Under the pieces are notes generated by a model, which was given only the letters and a program-made list of their open reading frames with translations, did not search any database and was not told where the DNA came from. Positions 3,244-15,800 of a DNA stretch of 23,423 nt are shown piece by piece. Origin of the DNA: a virus. The translations under genes were made by a program, and so were the position numbers. How positions within the stretch are numbered: position 1 is the first letter of the stretch; each line of letters opens with the position of its first letter. The stretch spans positions 1 through 23,423 of IMG/VR virus record IMGVR_UViG_3300008625_000078; one strand, 5' to 3'.

Positions 3244-4591
3244 AAATTTTAACTCATTTGGGCCGACGTTCCAGGCAAAGATAATATCATCGTTATTATC
3301 AGATAATAAATTTATACAAACTATTAGTGATATATTAGAGCCACAATACTTTGATTCTGATGCTAATGCCTGGTTAGTTAAACAGATAAGCGAATACTTC
3401 ATGGAGTTTAGAAAGGCTCCTACACTTGAAGTATTGAAGATTAAAATCACTCAATTAGAAAATGAGATTCTAAAAGTGTCTGTTATAGAAAATCTTAAAG
3501 ATGCTTGGAGAAACATCGAAGCTACTGATTTAGAATTCGTAAAGCAGGAAACGTTAGGATTCTGTAAGAACCAGGTACTTAAAGGCGCTATCGTAGATGC
3601 TGTAGATTTACTTGAACAGAAAAAGTATGATGAGATAAAAGTTATTATTGATAATGCTATGAAAGCTGGCAGTGAAAGAGATTTGGGTCATGATTACATC
3701 ATATCATTAGAAGATAGGCTTACTGGTTCGGTAAGAGAAACATTGGGAACTCCGTGGGATGCTGTGAATGGGGTAATGGATGGTGGATTGGCTGGTGGAG
3801 AATTAGGAGTATTAGTCGCGCCTGCTGGAATTGGTAAGACATGGGCATTACAATCATTAGGTGCGCATGCTGTAAAATGTGGAAAAACAGTAGTACATTA
3901 TACATTGGAATTGAACGCAAATTATGTTGGGTTAAGATACGATACAGTATTTAGTGGAATTACTACATCGAATATAAAATTTTATCAAGATGACGTTCAA
4001 TCAGTAATTGATAAACTTACAGGCAAATTAATTATTAAGTATTATCCAACTCGGTCTGCTACTGTAAATACAATAGCGGCTCACTTAAAACAGATGGAAT
4101 TGCAAGAGATTAAGCCTGATATAGTAATAGTGGATTATGCTGATATTCTGAAACCTACTGCGTTCTATAAAGAGAAGAGGCATGCAACTGGAGAAACGTA
4201 TGAGAATTTACGTGGTGTTGCAGGAGAATTCGATATTCCAATTTGGACTGCTAGCCAAGCAAACAGATCCAGCTTGGAGGAAGAAGTAATTGATGCAAGC
4301 AAAGTTGCTGAAGATTATTCCAAAGTAATGACGGCAGATTTTGTAATGAGTATAAGTCGTAAGGTAGAAGATAAGATAGCTAACACAGGCAGATTTCATG
4401 TCATTAAAAATAGATTTGGAATTGATGGAATTACATTTCCTGCGAGTATTAATACAAATACAGGGTTAATACAAGTACATGATGCTTCAACTGTTGATGG
4501 GAAGGACGCTCAAGGAAAAATGGATAATTCAGAAGAATATTTAAGAAAAACTTTGTCGAAAAAGTATAATGATATGGGAGGATTTGAATAA
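3233..4591 (+). CDS. 41: gp41-like replicative DNA helicase (DnaB family)
   Basis: Hexameric 5'-3' helicase that unwinds the fork on the lagging strand. The 452 aa compare with 475 for T4 gp41. The N-terminal helical domain spans about 1-160. The RecA-like motor follows, with Walker A APAGIGKT at about 196-203 and Walker B in PDIVIVDYADIL at about 295-306, plus a GETYENLRGVAGEF/ASQANRSS segment typical of DnaB-family motor domains. The C-terminus is acidic and polar. No primase (gp61) is visible in this window. It overlaps the upstream small gene and ends 1 nt before the methyltransferase start. Confidence 0.9.
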   Translation: MVSENFNSFGPTFQAKIISSLLSDNKFIQTISDILEPQYFDSDANAWLVKQISEYFMEFRKAPTLEVLKIKITQLENEILKVSVIENLKDAWRNIEATDLEFVKQETLGFCKNQVLKGAIVDAVDLLEQKKYDEIKVIIDNAMKAGSERDLGHDYIISLEDRLTGSVRETLGTPWDAVNGVMDGGLAGGELGVLVAPAGIGKTWALQSLGAHAVKCGKTVVHYTLELNANYVGLRYDTVFSGITTSNIKFYQDDVQSVIDKLTGKLIIKYYPTRSATVNTIAAHLKQMELQEIKPDIVIVDYADILKPTAFYKEKRHATGETYENLRGVAGEFDIPIWTASQANRSSLEEEVIDASKVAEDYSKVMTADFVMSISRKVEDKIANTGRFHVIKNRFGIDGITFPASINTNTGLIQVHDASTVDGKDAQGKMDNSEEYLRKTLSKKYNDMGGFE

Positions 4592-4592
4592 T

Positions 4593-6158
4593 ATGAATGA
4601 ATACACAACAAAAAATAAATGTATTCTTGGTGACAGTTTAGATAAACTAAAAGAATTAGATGATAATTCAGTAGATAGTATCGTAACTGACCCGCCATAC
4701 GGATTGAGTGCTGCTAAGAATAGTGGGAATAAATCTACTGGTGGTTTCATGGGCAAAAAGTGGGATTATGATGTGCCTTCTGTTGAGATGTGGGAAGAAT
4801 GTTTAAGAGTATTGAAACCAGGTGGTTACTTGCTATCCTTTGCAGGAACAAGAACTCACCATAGAATGTGTGTGAATATTGAGGATGCAGGGTTTGAGAT
4901 CAGGGATATGATTGCTTGGGTTTATGGTTCGGGCTTTCCTAAGAGTCATAATATTGGTAAGGCGATTGATAAAATGGGAGGTGTTTGCCCTAATTGGAAA
5001 CCATTAAAATACGAGGACGCAGTTAAAAAGAGTCCTTATACCCATAATGATATTGATAAACATTTAGGATTAAAAGCGTCATCTTGCTATTGGTCAAGAA
5101 CTGATGATAGAGCTTGTATCCCTTTAGAGAAGTATTGGGTAAAGATTAAAGAGTTTTTACAATTACCAGATGATTTTTCTGCTATTAAACCAGAAGCAGA
5201 ACGTGAGGTGATAGGGAAAAGAATAAGTAATGCACAAGACCAGCATAAATGGCTTGGAGAAAAATATAATAAACATAAAAGCAACGAAATAAACATAACA
5301 GCACCAGCAACCGAAGAAGCCAAGAAATGGGAAGGCTGGGGAACAGCCCTAAAACCTGCACTTGAGCCTATAACAGTAGCAAGGAAACCATTTAAGGGTA
5401 CAGTTGCTAATAATGTATTGAAGTGGGGAACAGGTGGGATTAATATTGATGGGTGTAGGGTTGAGACTGAAGACAATCTTAATGGTGGTGCTTATTCTTT
5501 GAATGGTGGAAGAAAATCACTTATTGGAGATAGCAGAACAGGAAAGGCAAAGGGGATGTTTCAAGATGGTAAAACATCAGAGAGCAACTATAAACAACCA
5601 CAAGGCAGATTCCCTGCAAACCTAATACATGATGGTAGTGATGAGGTTGTGGAGTTGTTTCCTGACAGTAAAGGAGGTGGATTTCCTAAGAAAATAAATG
5701 GTAATAGTCCAATATCTTTTAGAACAAATGAAGAAAAAGAAGAAAGAATAAATCTAAATGATTCTGGCTCTGCTGCTCGTTTCTTTTATTGTGCAAAGGC
5801 AAGTAAAAAAGAAAGGAACGAGGGGTGTGAGGAGTTGGAACACAGGAGACATTCAGATAGAAAAAAAGAAGATGGAGTTGGTGGAGATAACCCAAGAAAC
5901 AGGACTAACACATTAAAACAAAATTTCCATCCAACAGTAAAACCAATCAAACTAATGCAATACCTTGTCAGATTGGTAACGCCAAAAGGTGGAACAGTTT
6001 TAGACCCATTCGCAGGAAGTGGAACAACAGGAATTGCAGCAGTAATGAGTGAAAGAAACTACATTATGATAGAAAGAGAAAAAGAGTATTTTGAAATAAT
6101 GGAAGCAAGAATTGAGAAAGTTGAAAATCCTACTAAACAATGGGAAAAGTTTATGTGA
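4593..6158 (+). CDS. DNA methyltransferase (N4-cytosine/N6-adenine, DPPY type)
   Basis: SAM-dependent amino-methyltransferase for DNA. The catalytic motif DPPYGL is at about residues 33-38 and the SAM-binding motif LDPFAGSGTTG near 470-480. DPPY before FxGxG means a beta-class order, as in many phage and restriction methylases. The protein is 521 aa, with a long middle region (about 100-440) containing the target-recognition part and several Gly/Asn-rich loops. The C-terminal HPTVKPIKLMQYL segment is typical of the family. I chose the ATG at 4593, just after the helicase stop, with GGGAGG upstream. Whether the role is self-protection or regulation is unknown. No cognate restriction enzyme is adjacent, so it is likely an orphan phage methylase. 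Confidence 0.9.
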   Translation: MNEYTTKNKCILGDSLDKLKELDDNSVDSIVTDPPYGLSAAKNSGNKSTGGFMGKKWDYDVPSVEMWEECLRVLKPGGYLLSFAGTRTHHRMCVNIEDAGFEIRDMIAWVYGSGFPKSHNIGKAIDKMGGVCPNWKPLKYEDAVKKSPYTHNDIDKHLGLKASSCYWSRTDDRACIPLEKYWVKIKEFLQLPDDFSAIKPEAEREVIGKRISNAQDQHKWLGEKYNKHKSNEINITAPATEEAKKWEGWGTALKPALEPITVARKPFKGTVANNVLKWGTGGINIDGCRVETEDNLNGGAYSLNGGRKSLIGDSRTGKAKGMFQDGKTSESNYKQPQGRFPANLIHDGSDEVVELFPDSKGGGFPKKINGNSPISFRTNEEKEERINLNDSGSAARFFYCAKASKKERNEGCEELEHRRHSDRKKEDGVGGDNPRNRTNTLKQNFHPTVKPIKLMQYLVRLVTPKGGTVLDPFAGSGTTGIAAVMSERNYIMIEREKEYFEIMEARIEKVENPTKQWEKFM

Positions 6159-8217: not shown

Positions 8218-10075
8218 TTCTTGACTTTTACGATTTTCTTTCGTAAATTCATATGGAAATTGGGGAGTATATTCCTTTACAAAAATAAGAGGTGAAGTTA
8301 TTTATCAGAATTTATATTATGATCAAAGAAACCGGAAAGTCCATATATGGGATGATGAAAATGGGTATTTCACTATGCCTTATAAACGGTATGCTTATGT
8401 AAAGGATAGAAGTGGAACTCATGTATCTTTATATGGTGATAAATTAAAGAAGGTATTTAGATATGAGCCAGACACACCTAATTTATTTGAATCTGATGTA
8501 CCACCTGAAACTCGTGTATTAGTAGATCAATATAAAGATTCAGATGATATGTCCACCGGTCATAGAATTATGACTATTGATATTGAGGTGGAAGTTACAG
8601 ATGGGTTTCCAGAACCAAAGCAAGCAAAAGATAGAATAACGTCAATCGCTGTGTACAATTCAGCTGACGATACATATTACGCATTTGCATTAGATGAGGA
8701 TAAAAGATTGACTCTTGAGTCAAAAGGTAACGTTGTAATTGAATCTTTTGATGATGAGTACTCTTTATTGCAGAGATTCCTTGTTAAGTATATGGAATTT
8801 AAACCCACAATTATTACTGGGTGGAATATAGATACATTTGATATGCCGTACTTGTACAATAGAATGAGTAAAGTTGTAGGTAGTAATATAGCAGATGTCC
8901 TTTCACCCATAAGAGAAGTTAAATGGAATAAGCACAGAAAAAGATACTTGTTTGGTGGAGTAAGTTGTTTAGATTATTATGCATTATACAGATTATTTAC
9001 TTACACTCAATTATCATCTTACAGATTGGATGCTGTTGCTGAGCATGAGTTAAGTGAGAATAAACTTGAATACGAAGGTACGCTTACAGATTTATATGAA
9101 AAGGATTTAAATAGATATGTGGAATATAATATTCATGATGTTAGACTTGTAAAACGATTAAATGATAAATTAGATTTTATTGACATGGCACGTGGTGTAT
9201 GTCATGTTGGTCATGTTCCTTATGAAGATGTATTTTTCTCATCAAGATATTTAGAAGGTGCTATTTTAACATATCTAAAAAAGATGGGAATTGTTGCACC
9301 AAATAAACCACCTCGGCCAGAAAAAATGAGTGATGATAAGTTTATAGGGGCGTATGTAAAACACCCACAGAAAGGGAAGCACGATTGGGTATTTGATTTG
9401 GATTTAGTGAGTTTATATCCCAGCATTATACGGAGTTTGAATATAAGCCCTGAAACAAAGATAGGTAAGTTAAGTGGTTGGGATGCAGAGGAATTTATTA
9501 AAGGAGTGAAGAAAACATACACTCTAACATCAAATGATAAAGAAATAGGGAAGCTTACTGAAACAGAACTAAAAGATTTCTTTGATAAAAATAAAGTTTC
9601 AATATCTTCTAATGGTGTATTATATAGAAGTGATAAACAGGGACTAATTCCTGCTTTATTATCTAAATGGTTTGATACTCGAGTAGAGTATAGGAAACTG
9701 ATGAAGAAGTTTGGTGATGCCGGTGATAATGAAAAATATACATACTTTAAGAGTCGTCAGTTAATTCAGAAAGTGGTGCTTAATTCAATGTATGGTTGTT
9801 TGGGCTTAAAGAGTTGGCGATTTTATGATCTCGATAACGCAACTGCGACTACAATTACTGGTCAGGAACTTATTAAATTTACATCAAAAATGGCTAGTTA
9901 TAAATATAATTCTATATTAGGTTATCCGATTGAAATTGAACTGGAAAATGGTGATGTTAAAAAGTTATATGAGAACTCTATGGTATATGTAATTAGAAAT
10001 CATAAAAAAATAAAAGTATTAGTAAAAGATATAATTAAATCGGATGATTTTTTATATGAAGTATATTTTAAGTAA
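8192..10075 (+). CDS. 43: gp43-like family B DNA polymerase, N-terminal part (interrupted)
   Basis: N-terminal and palm part of the replicative polymerase. The first undisturbed ATG is 8375, but the same frame encodes clearly polymerase-like sequence from about 8246 (SYGNWGVYSFTKIRG) with no start codon. The only in-frame ATG is 8192, with GGAG upstream, giving MTIKNIQISS, then TGA at 8222-8224. I propose that ribosomes cross this gap. Counting from the ATG at 8375, the motifs are: Exo I IDIEVE (about 69), Exo II TGWNIDTFDMPYL, Exo III YNIHDVRLV, motif A DLVSLYPSI and motif B KVVLNSMYG. Polymerase similarity stops at NSILG (about 9922). A 50-codon foreign tail follows to TAA at 10075. Motif C and the thumb are encoded downstream. 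Identity is certain; how one chain or two chains form is not. Confidence 0.88.
8199..8251 (+). other. Putative ribosome-bypass element 1 (polymerase N-terminus)
   Basis: TCAAGAA (8199-8205) pairs with TTCTTGA (8218-8224). The 3' arm contains codon TCT (8219-8221) and the in-frame stop TGA (8222-8224). A second stem, TTTACGA/TCGTAAA (8227-8233/8241-8247), lies inside the skipped region. The reading frame is the same on both sides. Landing could be at TCA (8249-8251), giving ISS then YGNWGVYSF, or at TCT (8237-8239), giving ISS then FVNSYGNW. The synonymous landing is less neat than at the other two sites. Stop readthrough is an alternative. Confidence 0.42.
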
Positions 10076-10123
10076 CATAACAGAGATAATAAAATGAAAA
10101 TTAAAAGTATAAGGAGGCTGCCC
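9923..10123 (+). other. In-frame Hint/intein-like insertion in the polymerase gene
   Basis: Polymerase sequence breaks after NSILG and resumes at NVDVDHVIYIDT (from 10124). The 201 nt between (exactly 67 codons) encode a beta-rich segment (IEIELENGDVKKL, MVYVIRNHKKIKVLVKDII, then KMKIKSIRRL). This resembles the middle of split inteins of the NrdJ-1/gp41-1 type, but it lacks the N-terminal Cys/Ser block A and the C-terminal His-Asn block, so protein splicing is not expected. Codon 51 is TAA (10073-10075). A new ATG at 10094 restarts the same frame. It could be a decayed intein or a distinct mobile insertion family. Confidence 0.5.
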
Positions 10124-10162
10124 AACGTCGATGTGGATCATGTGATCTACATCGATACTTAA
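10094..10162 (+). CDS. Polymerase middle segment encoding half of motif C
   Basis: ATG at 10094 opens 22 codons in the same frame as the N-terminal part, reading KIKSIRRL then NVDVDHVIYIDT, and stops at TAA (10160-10162). VIYIDT is the first half of the catalytic motif C (YxDTDS) of family B polymerases. Its second half (DSIF) is encoded five bases later in another frame. The segment therefore makes sense only as a bridge between the two polymerase parts. It is about half G+C from 10111 to 10158, well above its surroundings, because the codons also form a hairpin. No obvious ribosome site precedes the ATG. Confidence 0.5.
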   Translation: MKIKSIRRLPNVDVDHVIYIDT

Positions 10163-10164
10163 CT
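10111..10164 (+). other. Putative ribosome-bypass element 2 (polymerase motif C)
   Basis: AAGGAGG (10111-10117) precedes a 13-bp near-perfect hairpin, TCGATGTGGATCA (10128-10140) against TGATCTACATCGA (10143-10155), with one G-U pair and a formal 2-nt loop. The hairpin's 3' arm encodes IYID. The next codon is ACT (10157-10159), then TAA (10160-10162). An identical ACT lies at 10162-10164 in the frame of the downstream part. Hopping from ACT to ACT yields YIDT-DSIF exactly, restoring both catalytic aspartates. A -1 frameshift would instead insert Leu-Thr into the catalytic motif. Confidence 0.58.
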
Positions 10165-10176
10165 GATTCAATCTTC

Positions 10177-11004
10177 ATGACTGCACTCCCAATAATTAAA
10201 AAGAGATTCCCTACAATGGACTTCGATAGTGAAACTTTAATGAGTAAAAGAATATTGGATGTGGCTGATGAAATGCAGACATTTTTAAATAGTTCTTATG
10301 ATTATTTCGCAAAGAATTTTCTTAATTTAGATAACCATAGATTTGAGATTAAACAGGAGCTGATTGCAAAGTCGGGATTGTTTATTGTAAAGAAAAGATA
10401 TGGGATGAAAATTATTAACGATAATGGAGTAAAAGTAAATAAGCTTCATGTTAAAGGATTAGATTTAGTTAGAAGTAATTTTCCAAAAGCTATGGGTGAA
10501 TTATTGAAAAATGTATTAGAAGATATATTAGCAACAGTACCTAAAGATAAAATAGATGAAAGAATTATTAACTTTAAGGAATCAATGAAGTTAGTTGATT
10601 TTGATAGAATTTCAATGCCGACTGGAGTAAAGGGGCTGGAGAAATACTCAGCCGGTAAGAAAGGAAACTTTACAGAGTTTGCTAAGGGATCTCCAGCGCA
10701 CGTGAAAGCTGCTATCACTTACAATGATTTATTGAAGCATTATGGGCTTACAGGTAAATACCAATTAATATCTGAATCGGAAAAGATTAAATGGGTTTAT
10801 TTAAAACAGAATGAGCTCGGATTAGTATCGTGTGGGTACAAAGGATATGAAGACCCACCTGAAATTATTAACTTCATTAAAAAGAATTTGGACTATAAGA
10901 AGATGTATAGTCAAATGTTGGAAAAGAAAATCTTATTGTTTTACGAAACATTGAAGTGGGGGCAGCCAGTAAATAAAAAGGCTTCCATTGAAAGATTTTT
11001 TTGA
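10177..11004 (+). CDS. 43: gp43-like family B DNA polymerase, C-terminal part
   Basis: Carries the rest of the palm and the thumb. From ATG 10177 it is 275 aa (MTALPIIKKRFPTMD). The codons just upstream in the same frame (10165-10176) encode DSIF, the second half of motif C, so the functional frame begins before this ATG. KQELIAKSGLFIVKKRYGM matches the conserved region after motif C in T4-like polymerases. The C-terminus KKASIERFF resembles a clamp-binding peptide, fitting the sliding clamp gene next door. If translation started only at 10177, the catalytic aspartate pair would be missing, so either bypassing or another recoding event is needed. Split gene 43 versions (43A/43B) are known in some T4-like phages. 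Confidence 0.87.
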   Translation: MTALPIIKKRFPTMDFDSETLMSKRILDVADEMQTFLNSSYDYFAKNFLNLDNHRFEIKQELIAKSGLFIVKKRYGMKIINDNGVKVNKLHVKGLDLVRSNFPKAMGELLKNVLEDILATVPKDKIDERIINFKESMKLVDFDRISMPTGVKGLEKYSAGKKGNFTEFAKGSPAHVKAAITYNDLLKHYGLTGKYQLISESEKIKWVYLKQNELGLVSCGYKGYEDPPEIINFIKKNLDYKKMYSQMLEKKILLFYETLKWGQPVNKKASIERFF

Positions 11005-11787: not shown

Positions 11788-12552
11788 ATGGAAACGTATG
11801 TAGATACATCGAAAATATCTATTAGACCAATACATAAACCATTGGCTAAGGATATGATTGAGAAGAACCATTATAGCGGAAGATTATCTTCTTGTAGATA
11901 CCCACTTGGAGTATTTTATAGAGATGATGAAAGTGAACATCAATTTTTTGATGTTGATGAAAAGCTCATTGGTGTAGCTACATATGGATTTCCAGTAGGG
12001 CGAAGGGTTATCGGATCAATATTCAAAGAAGATATATTAGAGAATAGAAATATATTGGAACTTACGAGATTATTTATACACGATGGTTACGGAAAGAATA
12101 TTGAGTCGCATGTTATATCAAGCACATTTAAGTGGTTGAAGAAATATGCACGTGAGATTAAGGTACTAATATCCTATGCTGACCCAGAGCAGAATCACGA
12201 TGGTGCTATCTATCAAGCCACAAATTGGATTTATCAAGGATGTGGTGATTTTCAGATGGCACCAACTTATTCATTAAAATTGAATGAGGATGATGATTGG
12301 ATGCACAGTAGAAGTGTGTATTCAAAGTTTGGGTCAGCAGCACCCGACAACTTAAAGAAAGCCATAGGTCATGACTTTTGGTTAAAGAAGGAGGCTTCCA
12401 AGCACAGATACATTTACTTTCTTGGTAGTAAATCAGAGAATAGAAAATTTAGAAAAATGATGAAACATCCTGAAATGAAATATCCAAAGGATTATAATCA
12501 TGATGTTGAAATAACAAAAATTGAGGTAGAAAATAAAAAATGGGAAAGTTAG
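11788..12552 (+). CDS. Mom-like DNA modification protein, paralogue 1
   Basis: A 254-aa protein resembling the Mu Mom family, which has an acetyltransferase-like (GNAT) fold and modifies adenine N6. Visible pattern: IEKNHYSGRLSSCRYPLGVF near residues 25-45, KLIGVATYGFPVGR, LELTRLFIHDGYGKN, then VLISYADPEQNHDGAIYQATNWIYQG. The last block recurs in altered form in the genes at 14585 and 15204, so the three are likely paralogues. It starts 3 nt after the clamp stop. I infer base modification that protects phage DNA from host nucleases. The actual substrate and product are unknown. Confidence 0.7.
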   Translation: METYVDTSKISIRPIHKPLAKDMIEKNHYSGRLSSCRYPLGVFYRDDESEHQFFDVDEKLIGVATYGFPVGRRVIGSIFKEDILENRNILELTRLFIHDGYGKNIESHVISSTFKWLKKYAREIKVLISYADPEQNHDGAIYQATNWIYQGCGDFQMAPTYSLKLNEDDDWMHSRSVYSKFGSAAPDNLKKAIGHDFWLKKEASKHRYIYFLGSKSENRKFRKMMKHPEMKYPKDYNHDVEITKIEVENKKWES

Positions 12553-14212: not shown

Positions 14213-14588
14213 CATTTCTGATGATGATAAGAAGTCATTTTCAAATTATATGATAAATAGATTTTTAAGTATGAAGGGATCGGGAGATTGGATAGATTTA
14301 GTAAATGAAATACAAAAATATCCATTACAATCAAAAGAGTTATACAAATTATATATTAATATACTACCAAAAGGTAAACAATGGTTAAAGTATGTTAAGG
14401 GAGATAAGAAAATGAAATATCCAAAATGGGTTTATGAAATGGTAGCCAAATACTTACAATGTAGTTTAAGAGAAGCTGAAGATGCTGTGGAGATGTATGA
14501 ATTATCCTATGGCGGTCAAGCTGAACTTAAAGATATTTTAATGAAATATGGCAAAACAGAGAATGAATGTCGTAAAATAGGATTATGA
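14109..14588 (+). CDS. 62: gp62-like clamp loader small subunit
   Basis: The single non-ATPase subunit that completes the gp44 clamp-loader complex. It is 159 aa against 187 in T4. The conserved part starts at SLFDHIQHIT and continues with a PYMINRFLSM-like segment (NYMINRFLSMKGSGDWIDLV), IQKYPLQSKELYKLYINILP and KGKQWLKYVKGDKKMKYP. It is basic and helical throughout. ATG 14109 is the usual choice, but TTG near 14142 would begin closer to the conserved part and would shorten the overlap with the small frame at 14042-14212. The stop overlaps the next gene (ATGA). Confidence 0.8.
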   Translation: MSGKKNGKESLVKKKSLFDHIQHITAVQSPTYWTDISDDDKKSFSNYMINRFLSMKGSGDWIDLVNEIQKYPLQSKELYKLYINILPKGKQWLKYVKGDKKMKYPKWVYEMVAKYLQCSLREAEDAVEMYELSYGGQAELKDILMKYGKTENECRKIGL

Positions 14589-15217
14589 GCGTAACTGATT
14601 TTACAATTGAAGAAATACCACGTAAATTCGTAGATCCTTTTATAAGAAAACACCATTATTCTGCTAGTACAAATGGCATTCAACAAAAAGAATGTTTCGG
14701 TTTATATACAGAAGGCAACTTTGGATTACCTAAAATGATTGGTGCTATGATGTATGCTATACCATCAATGCCACACACAGCAAAGAGATATAATCCAATC
14801 AATCCTGATAGGTGTATTGAGTTGAGAAGGATGTGTTGTATTGATGAGACACCCAAAAATACTGAGAGCTATTTTATAGGTAAAACTTTAAGATGGTTAA
14901 AGAGAAATACAAATTATGAAGTAGTAGTTTCTTTTGCAGATCAACATTATGGTCATTCGGGAATAATTTATAAGGCTTCAAACTTTGAATCTTTGGGAAT
15001 GACTGGTCAGGCAAGAATATTGATGGTAGATGGAAAAGAATACCATTCTCGATCTTTAAGTCAACCAATAAAACCTTATAGTGTTGAAATTCGGAGAAGA
15101 TGGAAAGCTAAAGATCCAAATGTATTTTTTGTTAAGAGAAAACCCAAGCATATTTATGTATACTATCTCAACAAAAAAATCAAAAGAAAAATAAAAAAGT
15201 TAAATGATAACAATTGA
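14585..15217 (+). CDS. Mom-like DNA modification protein, paralogue 2
   Basis: A 210-aa relative of the protein at 11788. Shared blocks in order: FIRKHHYSASTNGIQQKECF, MIGAMMYAIPSM, CIELRRMCCIDETPKN, then VVVSFADQHYGHSGIIYKAS and a C-terminal basic segment (KIKRKIKKL). A GNAT-like fold is inferred from family resemblance. Its ATG overlaps the gp62 stop and its 3' end overlaps paralogue 3 by 14 nt. Modification of phage DNA bases is the likely role. Target base unproven. Confidence 0.65.
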   Translation: MSVTDFTIEEIPRKFVDPFIRKHHYSASTNGIQQKECFGLYTEGNFGLPKMIGAMMYAIPSMPHTAKRYNPINPDRCIELRRMCCIDETPKNTESYFIGKTLRWLKRNTNYEVVVSFADQHYGHSGIIYKASNFESLGMTGQARILMVDGKEYHSRSLSQPIKPYSVEIRRRWKAKDPNVFFVKRKPKHIYVYYLNKKIKRKIKKLNDNN

Positions 15218-15800
15218 ATTAGTAGAGGATAGAAGTCAAAAACAAGCAGTAAAAAATATCATAGAAAATCATCATAGTTATGTAGCATCTAATGACTCAG
15301 TAGGTAGAAGAATAGATTGGTTAGTTTATCATTCGGATTATACAAATGTGTTGGGGCTTGAAAAGCCCGTTGGTATGATTGGTATAGGCTCTTCAGTTTA
15401 TCCACCACCAAAAGATATTTTAAGATATGCTGGGATGAAGAAGGATGAGTATAAAGAAAAATTTAATGAGTTTGGAAATAATTGGAGATTCTGTATGACT
15501 ACATATATTAAGAATGCAGGAACACAGATATTGAAACAACTTAGAAAACAAGCACCTATAGAGTGGAAGAAAAAGTATGGAGATGATTTGAAGTGGTTAA
15601 TTACTTTTGTCGCTGGTGGTAATAATGGTGCTGTTTATAAAGCAGATAATTGGAAACAGATTGGTGAAACTGCTGGATTACCAAAACATAAAGCAGTATC
15701 TATGAAGTGGCATAAAGATAACTTAGATACTATGTTTGTGAAACCAACTGGTGAAAATAAGAAAATAATTTTTATAAAAAAGCTTGACTTGTATAGGTAA
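15204..15800 (+). CDS. Mom-like/GNAT-type protein, paralogue 3 (divergent)
   Basis: A 198-aa protein with IIENHHSYVASNDSVGRRID near the N-terminus, KPVGMIGIGSSVYPP, and WLITFVAGGNNGAVYKADNW, which parallels the SYADxxxxHxGxIYxAxNW block of the other two copies. It is the most divergent of the three, lacking the ELTRL-type strand in clear form. It may act on a different substrate, or form part of a multi-step modification. Closest neighbours are paralogue 2 (overlapping) and the Nmad1/DUF1599-like gene. Confidence 0.5.
   Translation: MITIELVEDRSQKQAVKNIIENHHSYVASNDSVGRRIDWLVYHSDYTNVLGLEKPVGMIGIGSSVYPPPKDILRYAGMKKDEYKEKFNEFGNNWRFCMTTYIKNAGTQILKQLRKQAPIEWKKKYGDDLKWLITFVAGGNNGAVYKADNWKQIGETAGLPKHKAVSMKWHKDNLDTMFVKPTGENKKIIFIKKLDLYR

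Follow-up and report, generated by a model that had tools for sequence, protein, structure and literature searches.

Efficient programmed bypassing in phages has been established for a single gene, gene 60 of T4. In this case, a replication gene was split by an insertion of about 1 kb that brought a homing endonuclease gene, which gave the arrangement gene 39, mobA and gene 60 (PMC5009743, PMC3014915, PMC11194080). Early in the downstream gene created in this way, there is a short insert of 50 nt, which begins with an in-frame stop codon and is seen as a protection from the nuclease (PMC5009743). The refolding of a 5′ stem-loop, upstream of the take-off codon, is thought to aid the movement over this insert (PMC5009743; PMC11194080). 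According to a review of T4, bypassing is apparently unique to gene 60, and its use in other T4-related phages was posed as a question (PMC3014915).

Shorter hops have also been described. In the account of Weiss et al. 1987 given in PMC5009743, stop-hops and +5 and +6 hops in synthetic E. coli constructs involve re-pairing of the peptidyl-tRNA, past a stop, with a matching codon close by. A short bypass has been proposed in the terminase gene of Streptomyces phage Hau3, with a proposed dependence on a UUA codon (PMC5009743), and the byp elements of Magnusiomyces mitochondria are short inserts that are skipped in translation, occur many times per genome and are described as independent of mRNA context (PMC5009743). 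As for phage polymerases, the two polypeptides of the split gp43 of Aeromonas phage 25 associate (PMC2988022). Searches of the open-access literature brought up no polymerase gene described as being read by bypassing.

The DNA considered here, hereafter the window, is a stretch of 23,423 nt of a viral contig (IMGVR_UViG_3300008625_000078, positions 1-23,423, one strand). Judging from comparative sequence analysis, its family B DNA polymerase (PolB) gene very probably contains a mobile insertion cassette that uses programmed translational bypassing, likely a second natural case of the hop known from T4 gene 60. It is also probable that this is a second mobile cassette combining an endonuclease with a bypass, which spreads among phage DNA polymerases independently of that of T4 and in which the gap is 5 nt and a 5′ hairpin is the main RNA signal. 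If this is true, gene 60 would be no isolated case but a member of a broader class: nucleases would invade essential genes, with a hop to mask a protective insert. Four diverged natural versions of a far smaller element in a replicative polymerase, with sequence variation and closely related empty sites, would make it testable which signals are sufficient to make ribosomes hop forward, and also whether the inserts are kept as protection from homing endonucleases. Standard annotation would label such polymerases broken.

A split polymerase gene with a stop codon in motif C

The polymerase gene of the window is divided into an N gene and a C gene, with the following features, all on the + strand:

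8375-10075, +, gene for the N-terminal part of PolB, 566 aa, with the exonuclease and motifs A and B, TAA stop at 10073-10075
9923-10072, +, foreign 50-aa tail that ends the N gene, not in intact homologs; related tails occur in other split PolBs
10076-10093, +, 18-nt spacer, the position of a homing-endonuclease-like ORF in other carriers
10094-10126, +, start of the C gene (ATG10094) with the head peptide MKIKSIRRLPN; MKIK.I is kept in all four carrier lineages
10127-10138, +, 5′ arm of the hairpin, GTCGATGTGGAT, contributed by the insert
10145-10156, +, 3′ arm of the hairpin, ATCTACATCGAT, which codes for IYID of motif C
10157-10159, +, candidate take-off codon ACT (Thr); ACT, ACC, ACG and ACT across the four lineages
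10160-10162, +, in-frame stop TAA, which opens the 5-nt gap TAACT (10160-10164)
10162-10164, +, candidate landing codon ACT, which overlaps the stop by one A (the last of TAA)
10165-11004, +, rest of the C gene (DSIFMTALP..., thumb and C-terminal part), 279 aa past landing

The N gene matches Pfam DNA_pol_B (1.6e-29) and DNA_pol_B_exo1 (5.8e-25), and its residues 1-516 are about 74-80% identical to intact PolBs. In the C gene, the part from ATG10177 matches DNA_pol_B (6.1e-7), and everything after the landing codon is 79-86% identical to the closest intact PolBs. From the end of the helix ahead of motif C to the codon of the second Asp there are 242 nt in the window versus 33 or 36 nt in 230 + 27 intact loci. 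Relative to the 33-nt form, the extra 209 nt consist of an insertion of 204 nt, with the stop TAA at 10073 and the new ATG at 10094, and of 5 nt in motif C. Structure prediction was of low confidence (pLDDT 54 for the N protein and 50 for the tail plus head). The insert upstream of the hairpin (9923-10111) has 20% GC versus 33% for the window, and 10112-10159 has 50%, which makes the junction a mosaic.

At motif C, the upstream frame, a short ORF of its own from ATG10094 (MKIKSIRRLPNVDVDHVIYIDT), reads ..VIYIDT and ends in ACT-TAA, and the downstream frame reads TDSIFMTALP.... A +5 move to the overlapping ACT, with decoding resumed at GAT 10165 (GAT-TCA), rebuilds YIDTDSIF. Within -6 to +12 nt of the take-off codon, the landing ACT is the sole AC- codon that opens the polymerase frame in each of the four lineages described below; among the moves tried over the same range, +5 alone returns the Thr anticodon to AC- and to the polymerase frame in all of them. 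The ACN-to-ACT hop is the sole realignment found that would yield a working motif C.

A first-pass annotation made from the letters of the window had proposed this bypass, from ACT-TAA to a second, overlapping ACT, with TAACT skipped to give YIDTDSIF. Its reading of the sequence is borne out, including the 3′ arm of the hairpin that encodes IYID and ends at the take-off codon; the layout it gave for 10111-10179 is correct, and the hop is strongly supported by the layout of relatives, hairpin covariation and purifying selection on the shifted frame. Two of its points need correction. The hop was supposed to restore a single full polymerase, whereas motif A, with its catalytic Asp, remains on a polypeptide of its own, the product of the N gene; because the N gene already stops at 10073-10075, the product of the hop would be a C subunit of about 301 aa and not the whole polymerase. 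An AAGGAGG noted upstream is present at 10111-10117, but no role for it is supported: it consists of AGG-AGG codons, is peculiar to the window lineage and is replaced by A-rich sequence in the others.

Other carriers of the layout

Over 9881-10300, contigs from two other metagenomes (L001 and L048) show no difference from the window, and elsewhere they have 15-20 differing sites. An error in a single assembly is thus excluded, as both carry the stretch unchanged. Two further carriers, L150 and L169, were found by a protein search for PolB C parts followed by a spacing check, in which the motif was not used. They have the same split, an ORF of about 290 codons, then MKIKTIKKKNVGVDYNVYTDT-TAA-CT, and TDSVFYEALP in the shifted frame; the tail in L150 is EIYDITLENGKTIQMGGNAVVKLTNGLTKKVSELTENDDVLI, followed by a stop. 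When 2.9 million viral contigs were scanned for the motif, 9 were returned, all of them split PolBs of this layout; in 257 Gb of prokaryote genomes, the pattern matched 2 times, both unrelated. The scan pattern fixed TAACT, so its conservation in the lineages found by the scan is partly by construction, which does not apply to the window, L150 and L169. The 5′ arm of the hairpin was left out of the pattern, and hence its conservation is not built in.

The carriers, every one a metagenome contig, fall into four lineages: A (the window), B (L150, L169, L214 and L215), C (L208 and L212) and D (L211). Lineages B to D have polymerases about 44-50% identical to that of the window. Their split falls in the loop where the window has it, and the N gene ends in a related tail; motif C holds ACN-TAA-CT-GAY, and a hairpin of 12 bp abuts the take-off codon. 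The hairpin-stop-codon arrangement, whose search in relatives had been suggested as a check, is thus present in three diverged lineages. In all four, the stop directly follows the take-off codon (ACN-TAA). The pair of take-off and landing codons is ACT/ACT in the window and L211, ACC/ACT in L150 and ACG/ACT in L208, the first two bases matching in the latter two. Since re-pairing would go from ACC to ACU in lineage B and from ACG to ACU in lineage C, the P-site tRNA would have to tolerate a third-position mismatch or wobble. In a set of 50,697 records, the element was found in no isolated phage.

The 175-kb contig of L208 has one PolB only, in its two halves. In the L048 contig, a PolA-like ORF of 427 aa (L301, 604-1887) lies upstream of PolB; it falls under the Pfam cut-off and matches PHROG 2573, DNA polymerase, at 1.8e-6, so PolB is perhaps not the sole polymerase of this phage. 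A phage of lineage C (IMGVR_UViG_3300022848_000777; L310, 10937-19810) encodes 27 tRNAs, including tRNA-Thr(UGU), and a tmRNA, a set that may be relevant to hopping or to the rescue of stalled ribosomes.

The hairpin ahead of the take-off codon

The inverted repeat at 10127-10156 forms 12 bp and one inner pair, with two G.U pairs, and adjoins the take-off codon. Taken alone, it is no more than mildly unusual: it is the longest short-loop hairpin of the window, about one of at least 13 bp being expected per window by chance, and its folding z-score is -2.6. The GC content over the 48 nt at the hairpin (50%) ranks among the highest 1.5% within the window. It had been called a perfect hairpin of odd composition. 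The high GC content stands, but two pairs are G.U, and in the window alone the length is near chance. That the hairpin exceeds chance follows from its conservation, with compensatory changes, in the other lineages:

Lineage A (window): GTCGATGTGGAT-N6-ATCTACATCGAT-ACT, then TAACTGAY
Lineage B: GTCGGTGTGGAC-N6-GTCTACACCGAC-ACC, then TAACTGAY
Lineage C: GTCGGCGTAGAT-N6-ATCTACGTCGAC-ACG, then TAACTGAY
Lineage D: GTCCACGTAGAT-N6-ATTTACGTGGAC-ACT, then TAACTGAY

All 12 pairs are kept in five sequences, and 4 of them are altered on both sides. The covariation score was equalled in none of 500 shuffles, and sliding the partners by 1-3 columns abolishes pairing. With a covariance model, carriers score 76-109 bits versus 34 for the best intact PolB. 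Every non-Watson-Crick pair (four columns) is G.U in the mRNA sense and none is A.C, which favours an RNA structure. When an A-site take-off stem-loop was sought, a single downstream pairing (4 bp) was seen, which is disrupted in the window and L169. A crude scan of the L208 and L048 contigs for further hairpin-codon-stop sites gave none comparable.

Use of the shifted frame and alternative explanations

In a comparison of the lineage B contigs L150 and L214, the omega values are 0.075 for the N gene, 0.066 for the ORF in the split and 0.063 past the hop, at dS of 0.37-0.55; purifying selection on the shifted part is strong. The longest identical run between them in 2.5 kb is 101 nt (P=0.002, permutation) and takes in the head, the hairpin, the stop and the landing codon, as expected if this stretch is constrained as RNA plus protein. 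Hopped C products would have 299-302 aa in the four lineages. In none of them does a start or near-start codon (ATG, GTG, TTG, CTG, ATT, ATC or ATA) precede DS(I/V)F in the C frame; the second Asp of motif C thus lies beyond ordinary initiation.

It is very unlikely that the stop and the change of frame come from a sequencing or assembly error or from a recent pseudogene. Such an origin would suit a view of a single lineage, with two disruptions in one gene and a nuclease ORF apparently lost in the window. Nevertheless, the sequence is identical in three metagenomes, and omega past the hop is 0.06 between two carriers. Error and gene decay, which the first-pass annotation named as alternatives, are made unlikely by the layout shared with three other lineages, the compensatory changes in the hairpin and the selection on the shifted frame; for lineages B to D, selection and covariation in the compared sequences already refute them. 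Termination-reinitiation is frequent in phage operons, and in the window ATG10177 is in frame four codons past landing, which would allow the C part to arise from initiation or re-initiation past the stop instead of hopping. This has very little probability, given the lack of starts ahead of the catalytic DS: the first usable ones lie 4, 25, 9 and 25 codons past landing in the four lineages, and the second Asp of motif C would be lost.

The frames might also be joined by other recoding (-1 or +1 frameshifting, or stop readthrough) or by removal at the RNA level (an intron or editing). Hairpins stimulate ordinary frameshifting too, and phage polymerase genes often contain group I introns. By contrast, other shifts lead to a stop or to a wrong frame, a -1 shift adds two residues between the aspartates of motif C, no Rfam family matches (group I and II introns included), and introns of 5 nt are not known; these routes are thus highly improbable. 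Finally, TAACT could be a scar without function at the site of the pol-c intein, with the hairpin serving the nuclease as a DNA element and not as a recoding signal. The insertion is exactly at the pol-c intein position of LR756508, and palindromes may be protein-binding sites. A scar would kill the gene, yet it is under purifying selection, and the G.U pairs, in four separate columns, favour RNA over a DNA element, which makes this account extremely unlikely. The related idea of an intein scar or decaying split intein came first, from the pol-c intein of LR756508 at the same site, and was set aside as the whole story, being insufficient given selected carriers with covarying hairpins.

Mobility, the ORF in the split and inteins

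Presence of the element among relatives is sporadic. Carriers are scattered on the tree, the window lying among intact PolBs up to 84% identical to it, and well supported branches force four changes (gains or losses). Intact relatives have neither split nor insertion, and this includes L285, which is 92% identical to L150. Compared with L150, the empty site of L285 reveals two separate insertions around about 24 nt of motif C. In the window, residues 461-540 (near the junction) and 341-360 (near motif A) deviate from columns that the family otherwise conserves, a pattern to be expected of co-conversion by a distant donor.

Lineages B, C and D have ORFs of about 224-290 codons in the split and the window has none; its phage has apparently lost the nuclease ORF. 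One ORF type is found in B and C, where its end overlaps the ATG of the C gene, and another in D. The C-terminal halves of the two types are related (40% over 121 aa) and contain VDG(F/Y)..NIVIEY. Sub-threshold Pfam matches are to the ROS/MUCR zinc finger and NUMOD3, and the ORF resembles the middle of an ORF annotated with a VSR-like domain in the split Aes508 polymerase (about 43-45% over 64 aa). On these motifs, matches and likeness, the ORF likely encodes a homing endonuclease, of a type that differs from the HNH nuclease MobA of T4.

The tails of the carriers are mutually related in shuffle tests (p<0.02 for every pair), and the conserved MKIKxI head lies about 20 residues ahead of the take-off codon and may or may not serve as a nascent peptide signal. 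The PolB of LR756508.1 is split in the loop where the carriers are; its tail is related to theirs, and its head reads MKxKxI. It differs in having no bypass, its motif C site being filled by a pol-c intein. In Aeromonas phage Aes508 (JN377894), PolB is likewise split at motif C, with a free-standing VSR-like nuclease ORF between the halves; there, however, the split is after DTD, and the halves are rejoined by protein splicing with no stop-hop. The tail of LR756508 resembles the end of the Aes508 N-intein, also in a shuffle test, in which the tails of the window, L150, L208 and L211 individually do not; the carrier tails resemble that of LR756508 and not the intein directly. A profile comparison of tail and intein was weak. 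Descent of the tail from an intein is thus a lead suggested by these likenesses, and the cassette possibly descended from a split-intein cassette.

The tail was also considered as an intein and rejected, having no significant match in Pfam, NCBIfam or PDB; the intein families of Pfam and NCBIfam gave no match for the split region. A split intein, which would have a block A with Cys or Ser at its N-terminus and HN at its C-terminus ahead of Cys, Ser or Thr, was rejected as well, as the tail adjoins the extein directly without block A and the head is without block F/G. The LR756508.1 polymerase itself (259363-267278; L055) is that of a huge phage and has two inteins, near motif B and at motif C. 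The split of the gene lies between the two inteins, and the gap holds unrelated ORFs over about 3 kb. The Aes508 polymerase (JN377894.1, 18223-23545; L316) has three coding pieces, a Seg-like ORF, a group I intron, a split intein and the VSR-like ORF.

Proposed mechanism

In the proposed scheme, the cassette would enter the loop just ahead of motif C and close the N gene with a short foreign tail. It would usually bring a homing-endonuclease-like gene and then restart translation with a short head peptide, and a second insertion, of 5 nt (TAACT), would lie inside motif C. In the window, the ribosome would initiate at ATG10094, read 22 codons (19-22 across lineages) and pause with a Thr codon in the P site and UAA in the A site. 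The peptidyl-tRNA-Thr would then detach, shift 5 nt forward, re-pair at the overlapping ACU and resume at GAU (GAY across lineages), and the resulting C subunit, with an intact YIDTDSIF, may associate with the N subunit into a polymerase.

The hairpin is a 5′ stem-loop behind the take-off codon, of 12 bp with covariation. Since the last base of its stem adjoins that codon, it would press to re-form behind the ribosome; abutting the E-site codon, its refolding probably powers the forward move. A point against such a simple action is that, with ACN in the P site, the 3′ arm is inside the ribosome. The 5-nt insertion is probably retained because it breaks the target of the nuclease, as supposed for the 50-nt insert of T4.

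Compared with the T4 system, this locus is alike in that a replication gene is split by an insertion that in other carriers holds a nuclease-like ORF, a short insert that opens with an in-frame stop comes early in the second of the resulting genes, take-off and landing codons match, and a stem-loop is found upstream of take-off. The parallel with gene 60 is closer than the first-pass annotation had proposed, as it extends to the nuclease-like split and to the position of the bypassed insert. The differences are a DNA polymerase instead of a topoisomerase, a gap of 5 nt and not 50 nt, Thr ACN in place of Gly GGA, and take-off after 19-22 codons rather than 46; in addition, gene 60 has an A-site take-off stem-loop, which is not seen here, where the hairpin abuts the take-off codon. 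The hops of Weiss et al. 1987, as recounted in PMC5009743, are alike in re-pairing past a stop, +5 included, but occurred in constructs, while this case would be natural, with a conserved structural signal. The Hau3 terminase resembles it as a short bypass proposed in a phage gene, and differs by its proposed UUA dependence and in that no nuclease cassette is described there (PMC5009743). The byp elements, also short skipped inserts, differ in being mitochondrial, numerous and independent of context (PMC5009743).

Genomic setting

The window is a T4-like replication region. Besides PolB, it encodes a single-strand binding protein, a RecA/UvsX-like recombinase, a 5′-3′ exonuclease, a DnaB-like helicase, a ribonucleotide reductase, a sliding clamp and a clamp loader. 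An N6/N4 DNA methylase is encoded at 4569-6158. Downstream of PolB, at 11788-12552, 14585-15217 and 15204-15800, there are two Mom-family proteins and one DruA/Mom-like protein; the Mom-family DNA modification proteins match Pfam Mom at 8e-44 and 2e-40.
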